Origin: Mesorhizobium sp. M9A.F.Ca.ET.002.03.1.2
Lineage (GTDB): Bacteria; Pseudomonadota; Alphaproteobacteria; Rhizobiales; Rhizobiaceae
DNA: 64,000 nt
Direction: 5' to 3'
NCBI RefSeq assembly: GCF_003952365.1
Contig: NZ_CP034443.1
Location: 4,643,001-4,707,000 of the forward strand
Part shown: piece by piece, positions 26,913 through 43,437 of the stretch
How positions within the stretch are numbered: position 1 is the first letter of the stretch
Layout: the number at the start of each line of letters is the position of its first letter
The notes under the pieces: model-generated
Told to the model about the DNA's origin: nothing
Seen by the model: only the letters and a program-made list of their open reading frames with translations
Databases searched by the model: none
Made by a program: the position numbers and the translations under genes

Positions 26913-27866
26913 CACCAGCGAACCTTGGTAGACCAGACCGGGACGTCGGTCGCGGGCCAGCAGCAGCGGACCGTCGAGATCGACGAAATCGGCATCCTGA
27001 GCCAAGAGCACGGCCGGCGCCATGGCAAGCGACGTGCCGACCATGCAGCCAACCATGACGCCGAAACCCAGTTCGCGGGCGCGATAGCGAAGGGCAAGCG
27101 CTGCGGTCAGGCCGCCCGATTTGTCGAGCTTGATGTTGACGGCGTCATAGAGGCCGACAAGGGCTTCGAGATCCTTTGCCTCATGCACGCTTTCATCGGC
27201 GCAGATCGGCACCGGATGCGCGATGTGGCGGAGGATGCCGTCGCGGCCTGCCGGCAGCGGCTGTTCGATCAGTGTGATGGCGTGTTCGGCGGCAAAGGCC
27301 AGGTTTGCAACGATGTCGTCATCCGTCCAGCCCTCATTGGCGTCCAGGATGATGCGGCTCGCCGGTGCCGCCTCTCTAACCGCGCGGATACAGGTCATGT
27401 CGTTGTCGCCGCCGATCTTGACCTTGAGCAGCGGCCGCTGGGCATTGGCGCGGGCCTGTGCAGCCATCGCCTCGGGCTCGCCGAGTGACAGCGTGTAGGC
27501 CGTATCGAGCGCCCTCGGCGGAGCCGTGCCGATGCTGGAGGCGACCGGCTTGCCTGCGATCTTCGCCTCCAGGTCCCACAGAGCGCAATCGACGGCGTTG
27601 CGCGCCGCACCCGCCGGCATGGCGTCGAGCAGCGCGGCCCGGCTGATGCCGCCGGCAATCTGCTCCCGCATCGCCTCGATCGCATAACGGACACAGTCCA
27701 TGGTCTCGCCATAGCGCTTATAGGGGACACATTCGCCGCGCCCGGTATGGCTGCCTTGGCTGATCGTGCAAGCGATCACCTCGGCCTCGGTCTTCGAGCC
27801 GCGCGAAATGGTGAAGGTCCCGGCGATAGGAAAGCGCTCGGCCTCGACCGAAATGACACGCGCCAT
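26883..27866 (-). CDS. L-Ala-D/L-Glu (dipeptide) epimerase, enolase superfamily
   Basis: A 327-residue muconate-lactonising-subgroup enolase. The catalytic set is visible: KVK in LLKVKIGG (residues ~150), metal ligands in DANEGW, LIEQP and CADES, and the second lysine in NIKLDKSGG. The family epimerises L-Ala-D-Glu from recycled murein peptides, which fits the YcjG type; other dipeptides are possible. The gene converges with and slightly overlaps the MFS gene, so the two are not co-transcribed. Confidence 0.9.
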   Translation of the reverse strand: MARVISVEAERFPIAGTFTISRGSKTEAEVIACTISQGSHTGRGECVPYKRYGETMDCVRYAIEAMREQIAGGISRAALLDAMPAGAARNAVDCALWDLEAKIAGKPVASSIGTAPPRALDTAYTLSLGEPEAMAAQARANAQRPLLKVKIGGDNDMTCIRAVREAAPASRIILDANEGWTDDDIVANLAFAAEHAITLIEQPLPAGRDGILRHIAHPVPICADESVHEAKDLEALVGLYDAVNIKLDKSGGLTAALALRYRARELGFGVMVGCMVGTSLAMAPAVLLAQDADFVDLDGPLLLARDRRPGLVYQGSLVSPPDTALWG

Positions 27867-27944
27867 ATTTTTCTGCTCCAGCTATGCGACAACGAGCCCG
27901 TCGGCAAATCGACAGGTGGGTTCCGTCAGGCTAAACAGGACGCC

Positions 27945-29132
27945 ATGTTGACCATCCGCAAACGCTTCGCAAGCGGCACGACCGCCAATGGGGCCGATCA
28001 CCAGCCGCGCGTCGCGGTCGGTGAGGAGGGCGACGTCCTCGGCTGCGCCTTCTCCGGAAACTGGACGACGCGCACCGTGACGCTGGTCGACGCTGAGATG
28101 CGCAAGATCGAGAAGCGCAGCGGTTTCAAGACGCTGGCGCTCGACCTTTCGCGCATCGAGAAGATGGACACCGCCGGGGCCTGGCTGATCGACCGCCTGG
28201 TCAGCGCCTTCGAAAAGAAAGGCGTCGAGATCAGGCTGCAAGGACAAAGCGAGATTGCCTCGATCCTGCTCGGCGCCGTTGGCGACGCCGTTCGGCGCGA
28301 ATCCGATTCCGGCGGCACAAAGCCGCCCAACATCATCATTCGCGCGCTCGAGCTGGTTGGCCGGCGCGTCTATGAAATGCGCGACGATTTCCTGGCCTCG
28401 ATGAACATATTGGGCGCCACGATACGCGGCTCGCAGATGAAGCTCGGCCGTGGCCATGCGGTCAATCCGGCGGCGATCTTCAACCAGATCGATCGCATGG
28501 GCGTCGGCGCCATACCGGTGGTCGTGCTGATGTCGGCCATCGTCGGCGCGATCGTTGCCCAGCAAGGCGCCTACCAGCTCAGCTATTTCGGCGCCGATAT
28601 CTTCGTCGTCGATCTGGTCGGCGTGCTGATCCTGCGCGAACTCGGCGTGCTGATGACCGCGATCATGATCGCCGGCCGTTCGGGCAGCGCCATCACGGCC
28701 GAAATCGGTTCGATGAAAATGCGCGAGGAGGTCGACGCGCTGAAGGTCATCGGGCTCAACCCGATCGGCGTGCTGGTGTTCCCGCGGCTGGTCGCACTGG
28801 TGATCGCACTGCCTTGCCTGACGATCATCGCCAATTTCGCAGCACTTGGCGGCGGCATCGCGGCGGCATGGCTCTATTCCGACATCGCACCGGCCGCCTT
28901 CATCGACCGGCTGCGCGTCGCCATCGATCTCAGCACCATCTTTGCCGGGCTGATCAAGGCGCCGTTCATGGCTATGATCATCGGCACGATCGCCTCGGTC
29001 GAAGGCATGAAGGTCGGCGGCAGTGCGGAATCGCTGGGACAGCACGTCACGGCCTCGGTGGTGAAATCGATCTTCGTGGTCATCATCCTCGATGGGCTTT
29101 TCGCCATGTTCTACGCGGCGATCGAGTTCTGA
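27945..29132 (+). CDS. mlaE: Mla-type lipid transport permease with N-terminal STAS domain
   Basis: A 395-residue protein. Residues ~25-125 form a STAS domain (FKTLALDLSRIEKMDTAGAWLIDRL), the role played by separate MlaB in E. coli. Residues ~145-395 are an MlaE permease (RMGVGAIPVVVLMSAIVGAI, ELGVLMTAIMIAGRSGSAI, TAEIGSMKMREEVDAL, GLNPIGVLVFPRLVAL). It forms the membrane core of the ABC system moving phospholipids between inner and outer membranes. First of four tightly spaced genes; the ATPase begins two bases after its stop. ATG 27945 follows a short leader divergent from the epimerase. Confidence 0.93.
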   Translation: MLTIRKRFASGTTANGADHQPRVAVGEEGDVLGCAFSGNWTTRTVTLVDAEMRKIEKRSGFKTLALDLSRIEKMDTAGAWLIDRLVSAFEKKGVEIRLQGQSEIASILLGAVGDAVRRESDSGGTKPPNIIIRALELVGRRVYEMRDDFLASMNILGATIRGSQMKLGRGHAVNPAAIFNQIDRMGVGAIPVVVLMSAIVGAIVAQQGAYQLSYFGADIFVVDLVGVLILRELGVLMTAIMIAGRSGSAITAEIGSMKMREEVDALKVIGLNPIGVLVFPRLVALVIALPCLTIIANFAALGGGIAAAWLYSDIAPAAFIDRLRVAIDLSTIFAGLIKAPFMAMIIGTIASVEGMKVGGSAESLGQHVTASVVKSIFVVIILDGLFAMFYAAIEF

Positions 29133-29133
29133 G

Positions 29134-29955
29134 ATGGCGATGCAGGGCGACACGAAGGCGACCGGAGTTGCGGATGGGGCCGACGAAGACGAGATCGTGC
29201 TTTCCGCGCACGATATCACCGTGTCCTTCGGCGACAAGGTCATTCTCGATCATCTGTCGCTCGATATCAGGCGCGGCGAGATTCTCGGCTTTGTCGGCGC
29301 TTCCGGTGCCGGCAAATCGGTTCTCTTGCGCGCGATCCTCGGCCTGGTGCGCAAACAGTCGGGAACGATCAAGCTGTTCGGCGTCGATGTCGACAAGGCG
29401 AGCGAGAGGGAACGCCTTCGCATCGACATGCGCCTTGGCGTCCTCTTTCAGCACGGCGCGCTGTTTTCGGCGCTTACGGTCCTGGAAAACGTGCAGGTGC
29501 CGATGCGCGAATATCTCGATCTCCCGAGAAAGCTGATGGACGAACTGGCAATGCTCAAGGTCGAACTGGTCGGGTTGCCGCCGGATGCGGCGCAGAAATT
29601 CCCGTCCGAGCTTTCCGGCGGCATGATCAAGCGTGCGGCGCTGGCACGCGCGCTGGCGCTCGATCCCGACATCGTCTTCCTGGACGAGCCGACATCCGGC
29701 CTCGACCCGATCAGCGCGGCCGAGTTCGACGAACTGGTGGTCAAGCTGCGCGATACCATGGATCTGACCGTGTACATGGTCACGCATGATCTCGACACGC
29801 TGTTCACCGCTTGCGATCGGGTGGCGGTGCTCGGCAACAAGAAAGTGCTGGTCGAAGGCACGATCGACGACATGCTCAAAAGCGAGGAACCCTGGGTGAA
29901 ATCCTATTTCCGCGGAAAACGTGCGCGGCAACTTGATCTTGCGGCACGCGCATAG
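29134..29955 (+). CDS. mlaF: Mla-type ABC transporter ATPase
   Basis: A 273-residue ATPase with Walker A GASGAGKSV (residues ~55), Q-loop LFQHGALFSALTVLENV, signature ELSGGMIKRAALARAL, Walker B IVFLDEPTSGLDP and the switch His in MVTHDLDTL. The GGMIKR signature is characteristic of MlaF. It begins immediately after mlaE and precedes mlaD by 14 bases. A 15-residue acidic N-terminal extension precedes the domain. Confidence 0.94.
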   Translation: MAMQGDTKATGVADGADEDEIVLSAHDITVSFGDKVILDHLSLDIRRGEILGFVGASGAGKSVLLRAILGLVRKQSGTIKLFGVDVDKASERERLRIDMRLGVLFQHGALFSALTVLENVQVPMREYLDLPRKLMDELAMLKVELVGLPPDAAQKFPSELSGGMIKRAALARALALDPDIVFLDEPTSGLDPISAAEFDELVVKLRDTMDLTVYMVTHDLDTLFTACDRVAVLGNKKVLVEGTIDDMLKSEEPWVKSYFRGKRARQLDLAARA

Positions 29956-29969
29956 CCATAAGTGGGTAC

Positions 29970-31343
29970 ATGGAAACCAGAGCCAACTACGTCATTGTCG
30001 GCATTTTCACGCTAGCAGCGATCCTGGCGGCCTTTGCGTTCGTCTATTGGACGGCCGCGATCGGCGAGAGGGGTGAGACGGCGATGCTGCGGGTGCGTAT
30101 TCCGGGGTCGGCCTCCGGCCTCGGCCGCGGCAGTTTCGTGCTGTTCAACGGCGTCAGGGTCGGGGATGTCAAGCGCGTCTATATCGACCTCGACAATCCG
30201 ACCGCGGCAATCGCCGAGGCCGAAATAGGCCGCACGACGCCGATCACCAAATCGACGCAGGCCGATATCGGCCTTGCCGGCCTCACCGGTCAGGCCAATA
30301 TCGAACTCAAGGGCGCCGACCCCAAGGAAGTGAACCTTCTCGACCAGGCGGAAGAGGAGGGCCGAGTCGCCGAGATCGTCGCCAACCCGTCGGCGGTCAC
30401 CAACCTGTTGCAGACGGCGCAGAACATCTTCACCCGCGCCGATACGGTTCTTACCCAGCTCGAAGGCTTCACCAAGGACGTTCGCGGACCACTGACGCAG
30501 ACCGTCAACAACGTGCAGACCTTCTCCGATGCGCTGGCCAAGAATTCCGACGGCATCGACAAATTCCTCGCCAGCGTTAGTCCGCTGTCGGAAGAGTTGA
30601 AGGGCGTCTCGGGCAAGCTCGACGGCACGCTGAAGGCGGCGGAAGGGCTGCTCAACGCCGTCGACAAGGACCAGATCAAGAGCATCGTCGACAATGTCGA
30701 TACGGTGACCGCGAACCTGAAGGAAACCTCGAAGCAGTTCGACAGGGTCGTCAGGAACGTCGACACGGCGGTGGGATCGATCAACGATTTCGCCCAAAGG
30801 ACGCAAGGCACGCTGGCCAAGGTCGACGGCGTTCTCGATGGCATCGATCCGGCACAGGTTCGCACCGCGCTGGCCAACATCCAGAAGGCCAGCGAAAACG
30901 CCAACGAGGCTGCCGCCGACATCGCCAAGGTGACCAATAAGGTCGCCAACCGGGCCGATGATATCGACCAGACGATCAAGGACGCGCAGCAGCTCGCGGA
31001 GCGCCTTAACGACGCCTCGGTGCGCGTCGACGGCATCCTCGCCAAGGTCGATAAATTGCTCGGTTCGGGCCAGGCCGACGGCATGATAGCCGACGCCAGG
31101 AATACGCTGAAATCGTTCAAGCAGGTGGCCGACACGCTGAACGCCCGCCTCGGCACCATCACCAACAATCTGGCGCGATTCTCCGGTCAGGGCCTGCAGA
31201 ACGTCGAAGCGCTGGTCCAGGACAGCCGCCGTTCGATCACCCGCATCGAAGAGGCGGTGACGGATCTCAGCCGCAATCCGCAGCGGATCCTGTCAGGCGG
31301 CGAAGGCGAGGTTCGGCAATTCGACGGCAGGGTGCGGCGTTGA
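29970..31343 (+). CDS. mlaD: MCE (MlaD-family) substrate-binding protein with long coiled-coil tail
   Basis: A 457-residue membrane-anchored MCE protein. One N-terminal helix (residues ~7-29: YVIVGIFTLAAILAAFAFVYW) anchors it. The MCE domain (~38-120) includes SASGLGRGSFVLFNGVRVGD and IGLAGLTGQANIELKG. Residues ~150-440 form a long helical, heptad-rich tail (KVDGVLDGIDPAQ, AQQLAERLNDAS). That is much longer than E. coli MlaD (about 180) and similar to rhizobial and chloroplast TGD2-like forms. The tail may form a tunnel or bridge across the periplasm (inference). Third gene of the operon. Confidence 0.93.
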   Translation: METRANYVIVGIFTLAAILAAFAFVYWTAAIGERGETAMLRVRIPGSASGLGRGSFVLFNGVRVGDVKRVYIDLDNPTAAIAEAEIGRTTPITKSTQADIGLAGLTGQANIELKGADPKEVNLLDQAEEEGRVAEIVANPSAVTNLLQTAQNIFTRADTVLTQLEGFTKDVRGPLTQTVNNVQTFSDALAKNSDGIDKFLASVSPLSEELKGVSGKLDGTLKAAEGLLNAVDKDQIKSIVDNVDTVTANLKETSKQFDRVVRNVDTAVGSINDFAQRTQGTLAKVDGVLDGIDPAQVRTALANIQKASENANEAAADIAKVTNKVANRADDIDQTIKDAQQLAERLNDASVRVDGILAKVDKLLGSGQADGMIADARNTLKSFKQVADTLNARLGTITNNLARFSGQGLQNVEALVQDSRRSITRIEEAVTDLSRNPQRILSGGEGEVRQFDGRVRR

Positions 31344-31422
31344 CTTCGGCTTTCGCCCGCCCCAAGAACATGAGTTGCAAGTGCAGGTTGATCTTACGAT
31401 CCGGGGACAACGGGGATCGCGT

Positions 31423-32049
31423 GTGAAGTCATTCATGTCTAAATTGAGCGGGGTCAAATCGGGTGGGCTCAAAGCGGGTGTGGCATTGCTTACGCTTTCG
31501 CTAGCCAGTTGCGCGTTTTTGCCGGGTGGCGGGCCGGCGCCGCTGGACACATTCGAGCTGTCGGCGCCGGCCCTCGATGCGCGCGGCCGCAGCCGCCGCC
31601 AGATTCTCATCGCCCAGCCTTCCGCGCTCAAGGCGCTCGACAGCCAGAACATCGTCATCAAGCCGTCCGTGCGCTCGATCCAATACCTCAAGGGCGCGCA
31701 ATGGGCCGATCGGCTGCCGCTGATCGTGCAGGCGCGGCTGGCCGAGACATTCCAGCGTTCAGGCAGCTTCGCCGGTGTCGGCAAGCCGGGCGAGGGGCTG
31801 GCGATCGACTACCAGGTGATCGTCGAGGTGCGTTCCTTCGAAGTCCGGGTCGACGGCGGCGAACATGCCGAAGTCGACCTATTCGTGCGGATATTGAACG
31901 ACCGCAACGGCGAGGTGCGCGCCTCCAAGAGCTTCACTGCGACCGCGCCCGTCTCGGGCAGCGGCAACCAGGCCTATGTCGGCGCGCTCGACAGTGCGTT
32001 CGGCGATGCGGCCAAGGACATCGTCCGCTGGACCGATTCGGCGATTTGA
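31423..32049 (+). CDS. ABC-type transport auxiliary lipoprotein
   Basis: A 208-residue lipoprotein with a signal peptide and lipobox LASC (cysteine near residue 30), then the ABC_trans_aux fold: LDTFELSAPA, ILIAQPSALKALDSQNIVI, QWADRLPLIVQARLAETF and VDGGEHAEVDLFVRI. In alphaproteobacterial Mla-like systems it takes the place of the periplasmic MlaC or outer-membrane component. GTG 31423 follows a GGGGAT; ATG 31435 is an alternative. Last gene of the mla operon; no MlaC homologue is present. Confidence 0.9.
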   Translation: MKSFMSKLSGVKSGGLKAGVALLTLSLASCAFLPGGGPAPLDTFELSAPALDARGRSRRQILIAQPSALKALDSQNIVIKPSVRSIQYLKGAQWADRLPLIVQARLAETFQRSGSFAGVGKPGEGLAIDYQVIVEVRSFEVRVDGGEHAEVDLFVRILNDRNGEVRASKSFTATAPVSGSGNQAYVGALDSAFGDAAKDIVRWTDSAI

Positions 32050-32329
32050 CGCTGCCAGGGCCGCCGGCGCAGCTGGGATCAAAACTCAATCATCTGGCTA
32101 CCGCCAATGGTCGAGATGGGATTCATCGCAAATGCCACGCCGACAGATGAGGGCTCAATCGACCCCGTTCGTCGTGCCCGCTGCCGAGGACCGGGAAGGG
32201 TTGAAAGCAGTCGCAGAAAGCCTAACATGAAGGTCTGCGGCCCCGGTTCCAAAAAACTCAGAACTTGTGTCGGATTGGTCAAGACCCGTTCGTCCTTGGG
32301 CATGGACCGACATCACAAGGATAAATGAT

Positions 32330-32773
32330 ATGCCCAGTACTGTACGCCTGCACCGCGTTCTGGCAACCAGCCCAGAAAAAGTCTATCGCGCATTCCTTGA
32401 GGCGGACGCGCTCGCGAAATGGCTGCCGCCCAACGGCTTTACCTGCACGGTTTATCATCTGGAACCCAAAGTCGGCGGCACATTCAAAATGTCGTTCCGC
32501 AACTTCACAACGGACGAAAGCCACGCGTTTGGCGGCGAATATGTCGAGCTCGTTCCGGGCGAACGCCTGCGCTATACGGACAAGTTCGACGATCCTAACT
32601 TGCCCGGCGAGATGCAGGTGACCGTGATATTGAAGAAAGTATCAGTCGGCACGGAGCTGGATATCACGCAGGCAGGCATTCCGGACGCCATTCCAGCTGA
32701 GGCTTGTTATCTCGGTTGGCAGGAGTCGCTGCGAAACCTGGCAAGGCTCGTCGAACCGGAGATCAATCAATAG
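32330..32773 (+). CDS. SRPBCC (AHSA1-like) protein
   Basis: A 147-residue START/SRPBCC fold protein: the N-terminal RVLATSPEKVYRAFLEADALAKWLPP is the typical AHSA1 opening, with FGGEYVELVPGERLRYTDKFD in the middle and the C-terminal helix YLGWQESLRNLARLVE. These bind hydrophobic ligands or act as Hsp90-cofactor-like domains; the ligand here is unknown. An aagga lies about ten bases before the ATG. The preceding 280 bases hold no gene. A terminator follows directly. Confidence 0.87.
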   Translation: MPSTVRLHRVLATSPEKVYRAFLEADALAKWLPPNGFTCTVYHLEPKVGGTFKMSFRNFTTDESHAFGGEYVELVPGERLRYTDKFDDPNLPGEMQVTVILKKVSVGTELDITQAGIPDAIPAEACYLGWQESLRNLARLVEPEINQ

Positions 32774-32848: not shown

Positions 32849-35800
32849 TCAATGCAGGCGGCCGCTGGCGTGGGCGAGCATCGTGTAGACCTTGCCGGTG
32901 TCCGACGTCAGGTAGGTCTGCGCCATCATGTTGTCTCGGTCGTTGCGCGACACGTCCTTGAGCAGCTTTTCGAAATCGTCGCAGTAACGGTCGACGGCGG
33001 CACGGAATTCCGCCTCCATCTGATATTTGCGGCGGATCTCGTCGAAGGTCTGCTGGCCTTTCAGCGTGTAGAGACGCCGGGTGAACACGTCACGCTCGCC
33101 GCGCCGGTAGCGGTTCCACAATTCGATCGAGGCATCGTGATCGATGGCGCGGGCGATATCGACGGAAAGCGAGTTGAGCGACTCCACGACATGAAGCGGC
33201 GAACGCTGGGCCGGGGCCGAGCGTGGCGCTTCCAACGGCGCCGCGGGCTTGGCGACGTCTTCGCGTGATGCCCCGGTCAAGAGATCGCGCACCCACCCGC
33301 CCTGTGCCGTACGGCCATTGGGTTCGCGCTGGCGCGGCGGCGTCTCGACCGGGCGTTCCAGGTCGAGCGCGCCGCGCAGTGCGGACTCACCCAACGGCGC
33401 CTGAGGGGCACGAAGCTCCGGCTGCGGGGCCGCAGGACGGCGCTGCGGCTCAGCGGCGCGCGCGGCAGGCGCTTGCTGTGCCGGACGCAGGCTGCGCGGC
33501 TCCGAAGGGTCGGCGCTGCGGCCCGATTTCGCAACAATATCCGAAAGTTCCTTCAACGCGTTGATCTGCTCGGAAACGGCGCGGCGGATGGCCGTGGTCG
33601 ATTCCTTCGCCTCTTCCGGCATCTCGATGACGCCCTTCTTGAGCTCGGCGCGGGTGAGGTCGAGCTCGCTCTTGATCGAGCCAGCGGTGCGCCGCATCTC
33701 CTCGGTCGCGTCGGCGAAGCGCTTCGTTGCCGAATCGACAACGTCGGAAATGGCGGTACGGATCTTGTCCGCCGACTCCAGCGTCTTGCCTTCGGCGTTC
33801 TGCAGTGTCTGGCCGACCAGAGTCTCGAACGAGCGCATGACCCTTTCGAGATCCTCCGACTTCTTGACCAGGCCGACGGCGAGGTCCTCCAGCGACGACT
33901 GCCTTTCCAGCGTATGTTCGAGGTTGCTCTGGGCCGAACTCAACAGGTCCGAAGCACTGGAAAGCAACCGGCTGTGCTCGTCGAACTTGGTGGCGATCGA
34001 GGCGACCTCGCGCAAGGTGGAAGACGACAATTCGGTAAGCCGTGTCGTGTTCGAATCGACCAGGCGCGCCGAGCTGGCGAAAGTCTGGGCGGCTTTTTCG
34101 GTCGTTGCCGCGAAGCTTTGCGTACTGCCGGTCAGGCGTTCGTCGACCTGGCCCAGATTGGCCGCCGCCTGCTCGATCAGCTGACCGAGCTGTGCGCTGG
34201 AGGTGCTCATGCGGCCGATAAGATCGGCGACACTGTCGGCAAGCGTCGAGCGCGCGCCTTCGACGGCCGACAATGTTTCGGCCGTGCGGTTGGCGAGCGC
34301 ATTGACGAGGGTGGCGTTTTCGCTGCGCAGCTTCTCGGTGGCGCGCTCGGTAACCTCTTCCATGCTCTTTTGCAGTTCCGAGCCTCCCTGGGCGAAGCGC
34401 TCGACCAGAGGTCGCGCCGTTTCGTCGAGGATTTTCGAGATCTCGGCCGAACGTGCCGCAAGCATGGTGTTGAGCTCGCGGGTGTTGGTGCCGATGGTCT
34501 TCGCCGCATCGTTGGTGCTCTGGCCGATATGCTGGCCGACTGCGGTGAAGGTTTCCGCGATCGCGTTGGCGCGCGAAACGAGTTGCGCCTCGGCGCTCGA
34601 AACCTGCTCGTTGAGCTTCTGGCCCATTGCCTCGGTGGTGTGGGCGAGGCGGTTCTCGACGCGGGCAACCTGTTCCTCGACGCGAGCCGCCGCAGCCGCC
34701 GCGCTGGACGCCAGGCGCTCGTCGGCCCCGGCGAGCGCCTGCTCGATTTCGCGGGCGTGAACGGCAAGTTCCTGACCGGTCTGCCTTGCACGTTCGGCAA
34801 CCCGCTCCTCGGTGCTGGCAAATGCCCCGACGATGCTGTCGGTATGCTCTCCGATCGCAGACGAGCTGTCGGCGATGCGGGACACCAGACGGTGATCCGC
34901 CTCGTCGAAGATACGGCCGATCTCGGATGCGCGGGCCGACAGCGCCTCCGAACCTTCGGCGATGCGCGACATCAGCTGCTGGTCGGCGGCATCGAAAATG
35001 CGGCCGAGGTCCGATGCCCGCGCCGCGAGCGCTTCGGCCGATTCGCCGATGCGCACGCCGAGCCGTTCGTCGGCGCCTTCGAAATTGCGCAGGATGTCGC
35101 CGGCGCGCGCGGCCAGCGACTGCGCCGTTTCGACCGCGCGGGCAACCAGCTTCTGGTCCGCCGCATCGAATGTTCCGGCGATCTCGCTGGCACGTGCAGC
35201 CAGCTGATCGGCCGTTTCCTGGGCGCGCACCATCAGGGAGTTCGACGTATCGCCGACACGGGCCATGAGTGCGCTCGATGTATCCTCGGCGCGAGCAATG
35301 AGCGTGCTCGAAGTGTCCTCGGCTCGTGCGGCGAGGCGGCGATCCGCCTCCTCGAAGGTGCGGGCGATATCCTCTGCCCTGGCGAGCAAGGCGGCCGAGG
35401 TCTGCTCGGCGCGTTCGGCGATCTTGCGATCGGCGTCGCTGAACGCCGCGCCTGCCTGCTCATGCAGCGCGCTGGTGACCTCCATGACCTTTTCGCGCAG
35501 CGCTCCCGCAACGAAGACGGCGCTCTTTTCGAGCACGCTGCGAACGTTGTCGACACCAGTCGACAGCGCGCGCTCCATGGTCCCGGCGCGCTCCTCGATG
35601 ATGCCGGTCTGGCGGCTGAACGCCTGCTCGATCTTTTCGACATCCGCGGCGATTGCCGCGGAGATGTCGGTGCTTCTGGCGGCGATCTGGTCGATATGGC
35701 CGGACAGGGAACGGTCTACTTCCTGGCGCGTATCGGCGAGCCTGGAGAGATCGTCCTCCAGCGCACGGGTCAGCATGTCACGGCCTTCGGCCAGCTTGCC

Positions 35801-38800
35801 GACATGCCCGGCGATGATGCCGTCGACGTCGGAGCGGCTCGTCGCAATTTTCTGCAGGTCTGCTTCCAGCGCGCGTCTAAGGATGTCGCGGCCTTCGGCC
35901 AATTTCTCGACCTGGCCGGCGACCAGCCCGTCGATGCTCGACCGGCTTTCCGCCAGCTTGGCGAGGTCGTCCTCAAGCGCCTTGGAGAGGATCGAGCGGT
36001 CCTGGATTAGCTTCTCGGCATGGCTGTTTACAAGACCGCTGACGCTGCCGAGATCGGCCTCCAGCGCCTGCGCAAACTGTGCGCGATTGTCGGCCAGCTG
36101 CTGGGACTGGTCGGCGACGACACCCTTGATGGTGTTGAGGTCCGCTTCCAGCGCGCGTCTGAGGATGTCGCGGCCTTCGGCCAGTTTTTCGACCTGGCCG
36201 GCAACCAGCCCGTCGATGCTCGACCGGCTTTCCGCCAATTTGGCGAGATCGTCTTCGAGCGCCTTGGACAGGGTCGACCGGTCTTCCGCCAGCTTTTCGG
36301 ACTGGCCTGATATGACGTCCTTGATCGTGTTGAGATCGGATTCCAGCGCGCGCTTGAGAATGTCGCGGCCCTCGGCCAATTTCTCGACCTGGCCGGTAAC
36401 CAGACCATCGATGCTCGACCGGCTTTCGGCCAGCTTGGCGAGGTCGTCCTCAAGCGCTTTCGACAGGGTTGAGCGGTCCTCGGCGAGCCTGTTCATGTGA
36501 TCGGAAATAAGGGCATTCACGCTCTGCAGGTCGGTTTCCAACGCCTGTGACAGCTGGCCACGGTCGTCCGCCAGCTTTTCGGACTGGCCTGATATGACGT
36601 CCTTGATCGTGTTGAGATCGGATTCCAGCGCGCGCTTAAGGATGTCGCGGCCTTCGGCCAATTTCTCGACCTGGCCGGTAACCAGACCATCGATGCTCGA
36701 CCGGCTTTCGGCCAGTTTGGCGAGGTCGTCCTCGAGCGCTTTCGACAGGGTTGAACGGTCCTCGGCGAGCCTGTTCATGTGATCGGAAATAAGGGCATTC
36801 ACGCTCTGCAGGTCGGTTTCCAACGCCTGTGAGAGCTGACTACGGTCTTCCGTCAGCTTTTCCGACTGGCTCGATATAACGCCCTTGATCGTGTTGAGAT
36901 CGGATTCCAGCGCGCGCTTGAGAATGTCGCGGCCTTCAGCCAGCTTCTCGACCTGGCCGGCGACCAGCCCGTCGATGCTCGACCGGCTTTCGGCCAGTTT
37001 GGCGAGGTCGTCCTCGAGCGTCTGCGAAAGCAGGCTGCGATCGCTGGCGAGCCTGTCGGAATGGTCCCCGACCAGGCCCCTGATGCCGGACAGGTCGCTT
37101 TCGAGCGAGCGCGACAGCTCGGCGCGGTCTTCCGCCAGTTTGGCGGAATGGTTTTCGATGAGACCCTTGATGCCGACAATGTCGGTTTCCAGCGCCTTGG
37201 CGAGTATGGCGCGACCTTCGGCGATCTTCTCGACCTGACCGGCGACCAGGCCGTCGATGCTGGCGCGGCTGTCGGCCAGCTTGCCGAGGTCGGCTTCGAG
37301 GGCGCGCGACAGAATGCTGCGGCCTTCGGCCAGCTTGCCAACATGGCCGGCAACCATTTCGTCAATGATCGTACGGGCTTGTACAAGTTTTCCGGAGTCT
37401 TCGTTCAAGGCCTGTGAAAGCCTGCTGCGGCCCTCTTCGAGCCTTTCGAGATGGCTGCCGAGCGAAGCATCGATGGCGGCGCGCGATTCGTTGACCTTGC
37501 GCAGATCCTCTTCGAGAGCGCGCGCGATCAGGCCGCGGCCTTCGGCAAGCTTCTGCACCTGGTCGGTGACAGCTGCGTCGATACCTTCACGGCTTTCGGC
37601 GAATTTCTCAAGATCGGCCTGCATTGCGGCCGCCATGCGTTCGCGGCTTTCGGAAAGCTTGCGGCTGTGGTTCTCGACAGCTTCCTCGATGCCGACGCGG
37701 GCATCGGCAAGCCGCTGAATATCGGCGTCGAAGGAGCGCGACACCACGTGACGGGCCGCTTCCATGCGCCCGGCGAAATCGCCGGCGCGCGCCTCAAGCA
37801 TGGAAGAGGTCGACGAAACGATGTCGGCCATGTCGGCGCCGATCTGGGTCTTGCCCTGATCGATCATCGCCGACAGCGTCTCCCTGCTTTCCTGGAAGGT
37901 ATGGGCGATTTCGCGCGCGCGCTCGACCAGGGTCTCGTTGATCTGGCGCGCGCGGGCCTCGAGCGCCGCGTTGAGCTTCTGCGTGCCGGTGTCCAGCGCT
38001 TCGGCGCGGGTCTGGAATTCACCAATCAGCGCCTGACCGCGTTCGGCCAGCGTCCGCTCGATGCCGTCGAGGCTGGCTTCAAATTCGGAGTTGAGCGTGC
38101 GCGCGGCGCCGCCGAGCAGCGACACCATGCCGGAGGTCCGATCGTCGAGCAGATCGGTCAATGACCGGGTGAGGCCGTCGGTCGTGTCCGTCAGCTTGGC
38201 GATGCGCGTATCGAGCAGGCTGGCGAAGGCTTCGCCGGAGGTCGACAGGCGGTCCGTGATCGTATCGAGCCGGCCTTCCACCTGATCGAAGATCGATGTC
38301 GAGCTTTCGTTGATCCTGTCGATCAGCGTATCGCCGGAATTGTTGATGGTCATCGACAGGTTGGTCGAGGCATTGAGGATGCTGTCGCGAATGATGTCGC
38401 TGGCAGCCCCGATTTCGTCCTTCAGCGTCGCATGCGCGCTGGTGATCGAGGCGCGCACGCGCTCGGCGTGCGTGACAACCGCTTCGCGCTCGCTGCCCAG
38501 CCCGTCGACCAGCGATCGGATACGGGATTCATTCTCCGAATAGGAGCGTTCGATCTGGTTCACCTCGCTGTGGACCAGTGTTTCGAGCTCGACGGCACGC
38601 GCAAGCGTGCGTTCGATGCCTTCACCCATGGCCGCCACCTCGCGGCGAACGGCTTGCCCGATCATCATGACGCGATCCTGGGCGATGTTTTCCGGCTCGG
38701 TCAGGCGGAAAGCCACTTCCGTCATCGACTGAGCCGCGATGCGCATTTCCTGCGCGCGGCGAATCATGGCTGCAAACGCCCAGAACAGCAGGACGGGCAG

Positions 38801-39373
38801 GAGCGTAGCGGCCGCCAGGCCGATCAGCTCGGGACGGGCGAAAAACTGGTCGGGCGTGCGGATTTGCCAGATGCCTGGTCCAAACAGCAGATTGGCCAAT
38901 GCGCCGGCGCCCGCGATCCAGATGAGCGAAACGAGCGCCACGACCCAGTAGATCGTGTTCGAGGCACGCCGATTGAGGGTATGCAGCAGCGTCTTGTAAT
39001 CTTTTGGGCGAGGGTCATTGGCCGGCGTGAACCCGGTCGGCTGTGAGCCATTGCGCGTTTCCACAGGGCGCAGTTCAGTCGGCTTTGCCTTTGCCGCGGG
39101 CTGTGCTTTCTGGTCCTGGTTGGCGACAGGCTCCGCCTTCTGGCCTAGGTTGGCGACAGGCTCCGCCTTCTCGGCGACGGGCTCGGCATTCTGGTTGCGG
39201 CCTTCGCGTGCCAATTCGTCGGCAGCCTGCGATATCTGCGCTTCCAGATCTTCCATCGACGCGGCGATGTCGAGGTCGACTGCATCGCCGCTCAGATCGA
39301 TATCAAGTGCCTTTTCGAGTTCCTTGGCTACGTCGCTGTCGAGCGTTCTTGAAGTCGTTGTTTTCTTCGCCAT
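32849..39373 (-). CDS. Giant coiled-coil membrane protein of the growth-pole-ring (GPR/RgsE) type
   Basis: A 2174-residue protein. Residues 1-135 are acidic and proline-rich with a small duplicated stretch (EPVANLGQKA/EPVANQDQKA). Two membrane helices follow (~141-163 and ~183-203), then an almost unbroken alpha-helical region (~220-1960) of apolipoprotein-like repeats, a proline-rich linker, and a conserved globular end (~2055-2174: DIARAIDHDASIELWNRY, RRLYTLKGQQTFDEI). The architecture and size match the ~2,100-residue GPR of Agrobacterium and RgsE of Sinorhizobium, which form a ring at the growing cell pole and are needed for polar growth. That assignment is from remembered architecture, not alignment. 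Two repeat classes occur: LAESRSSIDGLVAGQVEKL units, and later ARASEIGRIFDEADHRL units. Confidence 0.87.
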   Translation of the reverse strand: MAKKTTTSRTLDSDVAKELEKALDIDLSGDAVDLDIAASMEDLEAQISQAADELAREGRNQNAEPVAEKAEPVANLGQKAEPVANQDQKAQPAAKAKPTELRPVETRNGSQPTGFTPANDPRPKDYKTLLHTLNRRASNTIYWVVALVSLIWIAGAGALANLLFGPGIWQIRTPDQFFARPELIGLAAATLLPVLLFWAFAAMIRRAQEMRIAAQSMTEVAFRLTEPENIAQDRVMMIGQAVRREVAAMGEGIERTLARAVELETLVHSEVNQIERSYSENESRIRSLVDGLGSEREAVVTHAERVRASITSAHATLKDEIGAASDIIRDSILNASTNLSMTINNSGDTLIDRINESSTSIFDQVEGRLDTITDRLSTSGEAFASLLDTRIAKLTDTTDGLTRSLTDLLDDRTSGMVSLLGGAARTLNSEFEASLDGIERTLAERGQALIGEFQTRAEALDTGTQKLNAALEARARQINETLVERAREIAHTFQESRETLSAMIDQGKTQIGADMADIVSSTSSMLEARAGDFAGRMEAARHVVSRSFDADIQRLADARVGIEEAVENHSRKLSESRERMAAAMQADLEKFAESREGIDAAVTDQVQKLAEGRGLIARALEEDLRKVNESRAAIDASLGSHLERLEEGRSRLSQALNEDSGKLVQARTIIDEMVAGHVGKLAEGRSILSRALEADLGKLADSRASIDGLVAGQVEKIAEGRAILAKALETDIVGIKGLIENHSAKLAEDRAELSRSLESDLSGIRGLVGDHSDRLASDRSLLSQTLEDDLAKLAESRSSIDGLVAGQVEKLAEGRDILKRALESDLNTIKGVISSQSEKLTEDRSQLSQALETDLQSVNALISDHMNRLAEDRSTLSKALEDDLAKLAESRSSIDGLVTGQVEKLAEGRDILKRALESDLNTIKDVISGQSEKLADDRGQLSQALETDLQSVNALISDHMNRLAEDRSTLSKALEDDLAKLAESRSSIDGLVTGQVEKLAEGRDILKRALESDLNTIKDVISGQSEKLAEDRSTLSKALEDDLAKLAESRSSIDGLVAGQVEKLAEGRDILRRALEADLNTIKGVVADQSQQLADNRAQFAQALEADLGSVSGLVNSHAEKLIQDRSILSKALEDDLAKLAESRSSIDGLVAGQVEKLAEGRDILRRALEADLQKIATSRSDVDGIIAGHVGKLAEGRDMLTRALEDDLSRLADTRQEVDRSLSGHIDQIAARSTDISAAIAADVEKIEQAFSRQTGIIEERAGTMERALSTGVDNVRSVLEKSAVFVAGALREKVMEVTSALHEQAGAAFSDADRKIAERAEQTSAALLARAEDIARTFEEADRRLAARAEDTSSTLIARAEDTSSALMARVGDTSNSLMVRAQETADQLAARASEIAGTFDAADQKLVARAVETAQSLAARAGDILRNFEGADERLGVRIGESAEALAARASDLGRIFDAADQQLMSRIAEGSEALSARASEIGRIFDEADHRLVSRIADSSSAIGEHTDSIVGAFASTEERVAERARQTGQELAVHAREIEQALAGADERLASSAAAAAARVEEQVARVENRLAHTTEAMGQKLNEQVSSAEAQLVSRANAIAETFTAVGQHIGQSTNDAAKTIGTNTRELNTMLAARSAEISKILDETARPLVERFAQGGSELQKSMEEVTERATEKLRSENATLVNALANRTAETLSAVEGARSTLADSVADLIGRMSTSSAQLGQLIEQAAANLGQVDERLTGSTQSFAATTEKAAQTFASSARLVDSNTTRLTELSSSTLREVASIATKFDEHSRLLSSASDLLSSAQSNLEHTLERQSSLEDLAVGLVKKSEDLERVMRSFETLVGQTLQNAEGKTLESADKIRTAISDVVDSATKRFADATEEMRRTAGSIKSELDLTRAELKKGVIEMPEEAKESTTAIRRAVSEQINALKELSDIVAKSGRSADPSEPRSLRPAQQAPAARAAEPQRRPAAPQPELRAPQAPLGESALRGALDLERPVETPPRQREPNGRTAQGGWVRDLLTGASREDVAKPAAPLEAPRSAPAQRSPLHVVESLNSLSVDIARAIDHDASIELWNRYRRGERDVFTRRLYTLKGQQTFDEIRRKYQMEAEFRAAVDRYCDDFEKLLKDVSRNDRDNMMAQTYLTSDTGKVYTMLAHASGRLH
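35867..37015 (-). repeat. Tandem 282-bp repeats within the GPR-type gene
   Basis: Units start at 37015, 36733, 36451, 36256 and 35974 (reading down the minus strand). The spacings are 282, 282, 195 and 282 bases; the third is a shortened unit lacking one 29-residue module. Each full unit encodes 36+29+29 residues, beginning EDDLAKLAESRSSIDGLV. The first two units share more than 70 consecutive identical bases (36481-36551 against 36763-36833), so the expansion is recent at DNA level. Confidence 0.92.
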
Positions 39374-41674: not shown

Positions 41675-43159
41675 TTACTCCACGCGAATAGGCGCCTCGG
41701 TCTCGGCATGGCCGCGCAGCGGCTTCTCCGGCATCAGCCCGAGCGTGACAAGCGATACGAGCAGCGTCGCCGCGGCGGCAAGAAAGATCATCACGAACGG
41801 TGTGGCCGACGCGACAGGGCCGGCCGCCTGCGCGCCTTCGCTGGCCAAAGGGAGGCCATAGCCGAGGGCGACCGCGCCGAGCATGGCGACGCCAAGCGCG
41901 CTGCCCAGCGAGCGAAGGAAAGCCAGCACGCCGGTCGCGACACCAAGATGCGGGCGGTCGACGGCGTTCTGGACCGCGATGGTGACGACCGGGAACGTCG
42001 TCCCGGCGCCCAGCCCTATGCAGGTCGTCAGAACCTCGACAACCGCCAGCGAGGCATGTCCGGCGACAAGGCCGAGCAGCCCGAGGCAGGCTATGGCGAA
42101 GATCGTTCCTACCAGCGCGATCCGCTTGTAATGAATGAAGCGCGGTATCATGCGGCCGCTGAATGTCGCGCCGGCGACGGTGCCGAGCAACAGCCCGAGC
42201 ATCGCGATGCCCGAATTGCTGGCCGAGAGACCAAGGACCGACTGCAGGTAGACGGGCAGGTAGACCGCCAGGCCGACATTGGCGGCCTGCAGCAGGAACA
42301 TCGACAGGGTGCCGGCAAGCACGATCGGATTGCCGAGCACTTCGAGCGAGATCAGCGGTTCGGCCGCGCGCATGAGCCGGAGCGCAAAGGCGCCGCTGAA
42401 GACAGCCGAGCAGGCGAGTAGCCCGAGGATTTCGCGCGACGTCCATGGATAGGCGCTGCCGCCCCAATTCAGTGCAAGAAGCAATAGCGCGGTGGCCACC
42501 ACGAGAAGCAGCGCGCCGAGGCCGTCGATACTGTGATGCCTTGCGGCGACCGGCAGTTTCTTGAGCGGCTTGTTGATGATCGCCATCGCCAGAAGGCCGA
42601 GCGGGATGTTGATCCAGAAGATCAGCGACCAGTGCAGATGTTCGGCGAAAGAGCCGCCGAGCAGCGGTCCGGCGACGCTGGCAACCGCCCAAGTGCCCGC
42701 GATCCAGGCGGCGTAACGTGCCCGTTCGCGCGGTGGAACGAGGTCGCCGATCACGGTTTGCGTCAGGGCGAACAAGCCGCCGCCGCCGGCACCCTGGATA
42801 GCCCGTCCAACGACCAGGACGAGCATGTTGGGAGCCATGGCGCTGACAAGCGATCCGGCGAGAAAGATGAGGATTGCCGCATAGACGGTCGGCCGGCGGC
42901 CGTAGACGTCGGAGATCTTGCCGTAGAGCGGCGCCGTGGCGGTCGCGGTCAAGAGGTAGCCGGTCACGATCCACGGCAGATATTCGGGATGCCCAAGCAA
43001 ACGCGCGATGGTCGGCATTGCCGGCGCGACGATGGTCTGGTCGAGCGCCGCCAGCAGCATCGACAACAGCACGCCGCCGATGATGGCGTTCTTTTCGCGT
43101 TCCGTCAGCGGCGACGCTTCTACCGGCGCCGTGGCCGCTTCGCTGACTACTTTATCCAT
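41675..43159 (-). CDS. DHA2-family MFS drug efflux transporter
   Basis: A 494-residue protein with about fourteen membrane helices. Motifs of the EmrB/QacA group are present: LDQTIVAPAMPTI (motif D1), LYGKISDVYGRRP (motif A) and GTWAVASVAGPLLGG (motif C). It probably exports drugs or metabolites with protons. ATG 43159 follows cggag. It converges on the reductase gene with nine bases between stops. The 278 bases between this start and the DUF922 gene contain no gene. Confidence 0.9.
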   Translation of the reverse strand: MDKVVSEAATAPVEASPLTEREKNAIIGGVLLSMLLAALDQTIVAPAMPTIARLLGHPEYLPWIVTGYLLTATATAPLYGKISDVYGRRPTVYAAILIFLAGSLVSAMAPNMLVLVVGRAIQGAGGGGLFALTQTVIGDLVPPRERARYAAWIAGTWAVASVAGPLLGGSFAEHLHWSLIFWINIPLGLLAMAIINKPLKKLPVAARHHSIDGLGALLLVVATALLLLALNWGGSAYPWTSREILGLLACSAVFSGAFALRLMRAAEPLISLEVLGNPIVLAGTLSMFLLQAANVGLAVYLPVYLQSVLGLSASNSGIAMLGLLLGTVAGATFSGRMIPRFIHYKRIALVGTIFAIACLGLLGLVAGHASLAVVEVLTTCIGLGAGTTFPVVTIAVQNAVDRPHLGVATGVLAFLRSLGSALGVAMLGAVALGYGLPLASEGAQAAGPVASATPFVMIFLAAAATLLVSLVTLGLMPEKPLRGHAETEAPIRVE

Positions 43160-43437
43160 CGATCCACTCCGTCCGCCCGCTGGCGACACTGTCTCCAGAG
43201 GAAGAGCCGAGGCCGTCCGTCTAAGCGCCGGTGACGGCGACAGGCCGGAAATCGGACCCTCTGAATTGGGCTGTGGACCTCGTTGGGGCAGCGGGGCTTC
43301 GAATCCCGCCAGGCGGGATCGCCGGACTACCGACCGGCATGCGTTTCGTATAACAGCGGCGTGGCAATAGCAGGCGATCCCGGACGTGTCGAGGCGCAGG
43401 CCTAGCCAGTGCCTAAATCGTTACTATCCGGTCCAGG

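Follow-up and report, generated by a model that had tools for sequence, protein, structure and literature searches.

The tandem repeats described here probably constitute an adjustable, phase-filtered segment of the helical rod of a GPR/RgsE-type scaffold, a segment that would be lengthened and shortened by recombination (a reading to which we assign a probability of roughly 0.72). A protein of this type would be an inner-membrane scaffold with one very long helical rod between its membrane segments and its C-terminal domain, and a spacer between the membrane and that domain is the simplest reading of the rod. The repeat array would be the adjustable part. Modules of 18 residues with optional 11-residue inserts would give a hydrophobic stripe that keeps the rod nearly straight; modules or whole units of 65 or 94 residues would be gained or lost when similar units undergo homologous recombination or slippage; and phase-breaking changes would be removed by selection, so that length would move on a lattice built from 11 and 18.

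A GPR/RgsE-type gene in Mesorhizobium

The window, by which we mean the whole 64,000-nucleotide stretch of DNA that was analysed, comes from a genome assembled as one contig of 6.4 Mb. It carries the following gene, with the parts of the product listed from the N-terminus:

32849..39373, minus strand: putative gpr/rgsE-type gene for a 2,174-residue polar-growth scaffold (open reading frame; PF01442 in 5 stretches; a single match in its own genome)
38951..39373, minus strand: N-terminal linker, residues 1-141, length free to vary across species
37739..38950, minus strand: hydrophobic (likely transmembrane) stretches and N-rod, residues 142-545 (404 residues long in each of the 100 genes measured)
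35708..37738, minus strand: variable module array, residues 546-1222 (677 residues), 18-residue modules with optional 11-residue inserts
33635..35707, minus strand: C-rod, residues 1223-1913 (98 genes of the genus show 8 lengths, in steps of 11 or 18)
32852..33634, minus strand: C-terminal linker and conserved C-terminal domain (the last 129 residues, 32852-33238)

The first-pass annotation had called this a growth-pole-ring-type protein of about 2,170 residues, and both the size and the identity agree with what we find. The identity fits on the strength of a Pfam match to PF01442 (94.6 bits against a cut-off of 90), a pair of hydrophobic stretches near the N-terminus (about residues 142-205, judged by eye from the translation), a long region in which proline is scarce (2 across residues 211-1900), and a conserved C-terminus. 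GPR of Agrobacterium (Atu1348) and RgsE of Sinorhizobium meliloti (SMc00190) likewise have about 2,100 residues, PF01442 and a long helical region, and their two N-terminal transmembrane segments may have a counterpart in the hydrophobic stretches; the match is one of layout, as described for GPR (PMC8262873), rather than of direct alignment to either protein. The last 129 residues are 79-99% identical in 22 loci (mean column identity 85% over 23 rows) and find a match, one each, in 197 of the 199 family genomes sampled. An AlphaFold2 model of this domain (mean pLDDT 72.7, pTM 0.66) returned no Foldseek match at E 0.001, and a Pfam search of the domain gave sub-threshold hits only. Two long antisense reading frames lie over the gene (33473-36010, plus strand, 845 residues; 35265-36500, plus strand, 411 residues) and are probably an effect of codon composition.

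Genes for an MlaE permease, an ABC ATPase, MlaD and an auxiliary lipoprotein stand beside gpr (27747-32049, plus strand), and genes of these types adjoin it in 56-57 of 62 named loci, these being the ones among 80 with more than 16 kb of sequence. An AHSA1-domain gene just downstream of gpr (32267-32773, plus strand) occurs in 1 of the 62 and so may be a local insertion. An MFS gene (41675-43189) has the same count of 1/62, which is uninformative since the gene lies beyond the upstream sequence of the named loci.

A genus search with one genome per species covered 146 genomes, and all 142 that were scored, the window genome included, had a gpr match. The gene was taken from 110 other genomes among the matches listed, with some contig-edge cases left out, a sample in which the more diverged members of the genus are under-represented. 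Both anchors lay in one reading frame in 103 of the 110 and not in the remaining 7. With the window gene added and two genes bearing Ns in the array left out, array lengths were counted in 102 genes, one of which (G029, with a frameshift in the C-rod) was retained. The reading frame is broken where there are no N runs in loci L177 (G076), L163 (G023) and L189 (G029); G076 is assembled in 1 contig and G029 in 3, and their broken frames reflect either sequencing error or real loss. In other genera, the gpr proteins of loci L252-L257 and L260 reach about 2,900-3,400 residues, and Tandem Repeats Finder detects arrays with a period of 29, 36 or 66 residues in 6 of these 7, with none in L256.

Composition of the repeat array

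The repeated part of the array resolves into these units:

37007..37288, minus strand: U0, 94 residues, diverged (67% DNA identity to the other units)
36725..37006, minus strand: U1, 94 residues
36443..36724, minus strand: U2, 94 residues, 92.6% identical to U1
36248..36442, minus strand: U3, 65 residues, without one 29-residue module
35966..36247, minus strand: U4, 94 residues, of a second sequence type
35858..35965, minus strand: U5, first 36 residues only

Tandem Repeats Finder reports a 282-bp periodicity at 35856-36378 and 36279-37020. Each full unit of 94 residues (282 bp) is made up of 18+18+29+29 residues, and the 29-residue module is itself the 18-residue module with an 11-residue insert. 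The earlier annotation had placed five units of 36+29+29 residues at 35867..37015. A repeat array is indeed present there, with boundaries better set at 35858-37006, and one unit is short by a single 29-residue module, as had been claimed. The five units, however, measure 94, 94, 65, 94 and 36 residues, so that three are full and the fifth is partial, and the array extends beyond them to the diverged unit U0 just upstream. Identical stretches of over 70 bases between neighbours are borne out by two exact repeats, 77 bp and 71 bp long, spaced 282 bp apart; near-identity is nevertheless local, with the best full-unit pair, U1/U2, at dS 0.26 and the remaining full-unit pairs at 67-75% identity (dS 0.8-1.2). 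The 77-bp run is slightly longer than random placement of 21 differences predicts (P 0.02, for one pair that was chosen for holding the longest run).

A module finder with a fixed pattern, applied to 97 proteins, shows that module heads are mostly spaced 18 or 29 residues apart. Among 2,929 spacings, 1,961 are of 18 residues and 546 of 29; 367 are of 14 or 15, which we take to be a second hit of the pattern within a 29-residue module, and the other 55 span 36-58, mostly through missed module heads. Two smaller repeats lie elsewhere in the gene, namely 30-bp repeats in the N-terminal linker (39108-39171), whose length is free to vary in the genus, and an 87-bp (29-residue) repeat in the C-rod (34869-35032), a second and smaller repeat region.

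Rod length changes almost always in sums of 11 and 18 residues

Gaps were counted in 203 nearest-neighbour pairs of 97 proteins, with open-ended genes, N-bearing genes and G029 excluded. When the whole rod was aligned without inner anchors, these pairs, which are not independent of one another, gave 262 gaps, of which 256 are of the form 11a+18b and six are of 7 residues (18 minus 11). Rod gaps of 1-6 residues number 0 of the 262, whereas such gaps are the rule in the linkers. In the anchored alignment of the same pairs, the array has 196 gaps, mostly of 29, 36, 65, 94 and 58 residues, and the C-rod 66, every one of them on the lattice. Gaps of 1-5 residues predominate in the two linkers, with totals of 289 and 298, and by our count 5 of these 587 are sums of 11 and 18. 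In the N-rod there was no gap in any of the 203 pairs, and the distance from the membrane segment to the start of the array is the same in every gene measured. N-rod lengths in the named loci (404 in 56 of 70, 349 in 12, 401 and 451 in one each) were not used, because in these diverged sequences they were extrapolated from local alignments.

Length differences that need no alignment give the same picture. Between the members of the 203 pairs, rod length differs by 0 in 44 and by 7 in 5, and otherwise by 11 or by at least 22; differences of 1-6, 8-10 or 12-21 residues do not occur in these pairs. Membrane stretches included, the rods span 1,602 to 2,054 residues. The C-rod has lengths of 669, 680, 691, 709, 720, 731, 749 and 767 residues and changed length at least 19 times on the tree. 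In nine further pairs, some of them within the genus and two without a rod gap, with rod limits set by a proline-content rule, 15 of 16 rod gaps and 1 of 55 linker gaps are on the lattice, the exception being a gap of 4 residues at the edge of the rod. Self-repeat offsets of up to 120 residues in 20 family genomes, three of which had none, are of the form 11a+18b in 50 of 50 cases; with the background density at 0.40, the 12 distinct offsets have a binomial P of 1.6e-5, the offsets not being independent. Counting against the phase reading, only 9 of the 12 bring a helix of 3.62 residues per turn back to within 45 degrees. Only small gaps test the lattice in any of these comparisons, since beyond 152 no integer falls outside the sums of 11 and 18.

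Could the lattice be purely mutational, with repeats of 11 and 18 residues recombining and the helix phase unselected? Most gaps in the array are whole modules or units, the size that recombination would give, and low-complexity linkers may simply mutate more. As repeats yield unit-sized insertions and deletions by mutation alone, and as linkers of this kind may gain them more easily, the lattice is not a pure signal of selection. However, the rod lacks gaps of 1-6 residues altogether in the same pairs whose linkers have hundreds, and the N-rod is without any gap. The missing small gaps argue for selection as well as unit-sized mutation, even if the linkers may mutate more, and we regard a purely mutational origin as possible but unlikely.

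Helix geometry and the predicted rod

The hydrophobic stripe of the array has a period of 3.615 residues per turn, with a power of 13.3, whereas 500 shuffles reach 2.0 at most, a test that is not strict since shuffling residues destroys the repeats too. A 477-residue stretch covered in the same analysis contains no proline. Eighteen residues make 5 turns (3.60 residues per turn) and 11 make 3 (3.67), and the 29-residue module corresponds to 29/8, or 3.625. An undistorted helix is given as having 3.63 residues per turn, and hendecads (11/3) as producing very minor supercoiling (PMC9858780). Mixing modules of 18 with inserts of 11 should therefore leave the stripe nearly parallel to the helix axis. 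AlphaFold2 models 492 residues as two helices, 2-303 and 314-491, with a low-confidence break at 304-313, that is, as long continuous helices rather than separately folded domains, at modest confidence (mean pLDDT 72, pTM 0.24). A search for solved structural relatives of the array returned none at E 0.01. From the periodicity and the lattice we infer that the array is a straight rod in which helix phase must be kept; the rod is probably a multi-helix bundle.

The rise of an alpha-helix is 0.15 nm per residue. A 94-residue unit would then measure about 14 nm and the rods at most 240-308 nm, if helical and extended. By the same figure, 1,700 residues come to about 255 nm, compared with the 600 nm given for that length of GPR (PMC8262873). 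The same source takes the width of the GPR foci, only 50 nm, as an argument for a protein folded on itself, which speaks against a fully extended rod.

A different reading would make the array a lipid-binding surface like that of apolipoproteins, with copy number setting the lipid-binding capacity. The PF01442 matches are in keeping with it, and it has been proposed for GPR (PMC8262873); the Mla-type lipid-transport genes next to gpr lend that proposal some support. On the other side stands the shape of the stripe. The strongly apolar stripe is narrow (positions 4, 11 and 15, and mostly 1, of 18) and has a conserved arginine beside it, in helical-wheel counts that are partly circular as the module pattern itself fixes positions 3, 4, 8 and 11. 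The arginine columns that are invariant and regularly spaced in an 18-row alignment are free of this circularity. Lipid-binding faces are generally broad, unlike the narrow stripe of the array. Copy number as a measure of lipid-binding capacity is, in our view, a doubtful account.

Array length differs between species

The claim that repeat number varies holds between species: rather than having the same number of repeats everywhere, the 102 genus genes from the matches listed have arrays of 20 distinct lengths, from 518 to 959 residues. Among them the closest pair (G037 and G140, the latter a draft) has a flank dS of 0.042 and differs by one 94-residue unit, the remaining units matching by position at 96-99%. 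Equal length does not imply equal order, as the arrays of the window and G037 both measure 677 residues yet differ in the order of their units. From U0 onwards, and followed in each case by the partial unit, the orders are as follows:

window: 94-94-94-65-94
G037: 94-94-65-94-94
G086: 94-94-65-94-65-94-94
G034: 94-94-94-94-65-94-94-94

On a tree of the flanks (FastTree, 98 genes) array length changed at least 50 times, compared with a mean of 75 in 30 shuffles, so it changes often and is nonetheless partly inherited. Unit number does change between species, and the unequal recombination that the first-pass annotation had proposed is the likely route. A protein search meant for comparison between strains was discarded, as the longest of its 44 proteins had 1,769 residues and the window's own was absent.

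The same annotation had called the amplification recent, for which the window genome gives little support. The nearest usable species among the matches listed, G096, has a flank dS of 0.136 to the window. U1 is 99.1% identical to the second unit of G096 over 222 bp (dS 0.04), and U3 is 97.4% identical to its short unit (dS 0.06). Both are closer to these counterparts than to other units in the window over comparable lengths, except for U2/U3 over their first 141 bp (97.2% identical, dS 0.12). As U1/U2 have diverged further than the flanks, and U1 and U3 resemble their G096 counterparts more closely, the copying of U1/U2, dated here from sequence divergence, probably predates the split from G096. 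As a witness of repeat number G096 was rejected, having 57 Ns inside its array. Fresher copies do exist in the draft G032, where a block of 65+94 residues is present in two copies that are identical over 282 bp and differ at 2 positions over 195 bp (2 in 477 bp). Values of dN/dS of 0.11 for paralogous units within genomes (8 pairs pooled) and of 0.14 and 0.19 in two comparisons of orthologous units indicate that the units are under purifying selection.

These ages bear on the original suggestion of a fast switch of repeat number between strains that alters ring span and cell shape. The nearly perfect duplication in G032 and the single-unit difference within the closest species pair are what such a switch might produce. 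The dS between U1 and U2 is high for it, though, and array length is common to many close pairs (16 of 23 at flank dS 0.10-0.15 and 3 of 7 at 0.05-0.10), besides being partly inherited on the tree; we therefore find a fast switch improbable. That the length differences are assembly artefacts, as the N runs that several drafts carry within or next to their arrays might suggest, is hardly credible given that the window genome is one contig and that the 32 of the 102 genes whose assemblies have no more than 5 contigs give 14 lengths, 518-836 residues. Repeat counts from individual drafts are doubtful all the same, as N runs interrupt or adjoin the array in 5 of the 7 broken genes and in G096.

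Relation to known systems and significance

RgsE has been called a large, repeat-containing protein (PMC7327166), and the main text of PMC8262873 has no word starting with "repeat". In the passages of these two papers that describe GPR and RgsE, neither a tally of how unit number varies nor an 11/18 lattice appears, and among the titles and abstract openings listed in searches of open-licence literature none mentions repeat-number variation or such a lattice in these proteins. Further parallels lie elsewhere. Periscope Proteins also have rod-like tandem repeats whose number varies among close relatives, with recombination as the proposed route (PMC9704523), and in the window's genus this variation is found between species. 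Their repeats, however, are individually folding domains at the cell surface (PMC9704523), whereas the window array would be a helical rod, cytoplasmic-facing if GPR/RgsE-like. Similarly, the coiled-coil stalks of trimeric autotransporter adhesins vary in repeat number, but these are multimeric surface adhesins with connector domains (PMC9704523). FilP and Scy are bacterial growth or division scaffolds whose long rods consist of 11-residue repeats, that of Scy exceeding 1,000 residues (PMC9858780). They are built of hendecads, whereas the window array mixes 18-residue modules with 11-residue inserts; it lacks an 11-residue periodicity throughout, as its stripe period and the prevalence of 18-residue spacings show.

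How might an adjustable rod matter to the cell? One speculative possibility is that the length of the rod determines how far apart the parts of the ring or pole stand. A stronger version, which we hold only tentatively and think unlikely, is a quantised molecular ruler, in which only lengths that keep phase are allowed, recombination tunes the rod by 3 or 5 turns at a time, and its length fixes the distance from membrane anchor to C-terminal domain, and hence the geometry of the ring. Six GPR foci have been described on a 200-nm ring (PMC8262873), which places them about 100 nm apart, close to the length of the window array as one helix (677 residues at 0.15 nm), a match that may be coincidental.

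These results may bear on how polar-growing Rhizobiales determine the extent of their growth zone. In Agrobacterium, GPR is reported to be indispensable for growth at the pole (PMC8262873); S. meliloti survives without RgsE but grows slowly and has defects in shape (PMC7327166). Species that differ in rod length form a natural length series, in which a link between the rod and pole geometry would be testable. The 11/18 lattice, in turn, constrains the structure, pointing to long continuous helices with little tolerance of small insertions.
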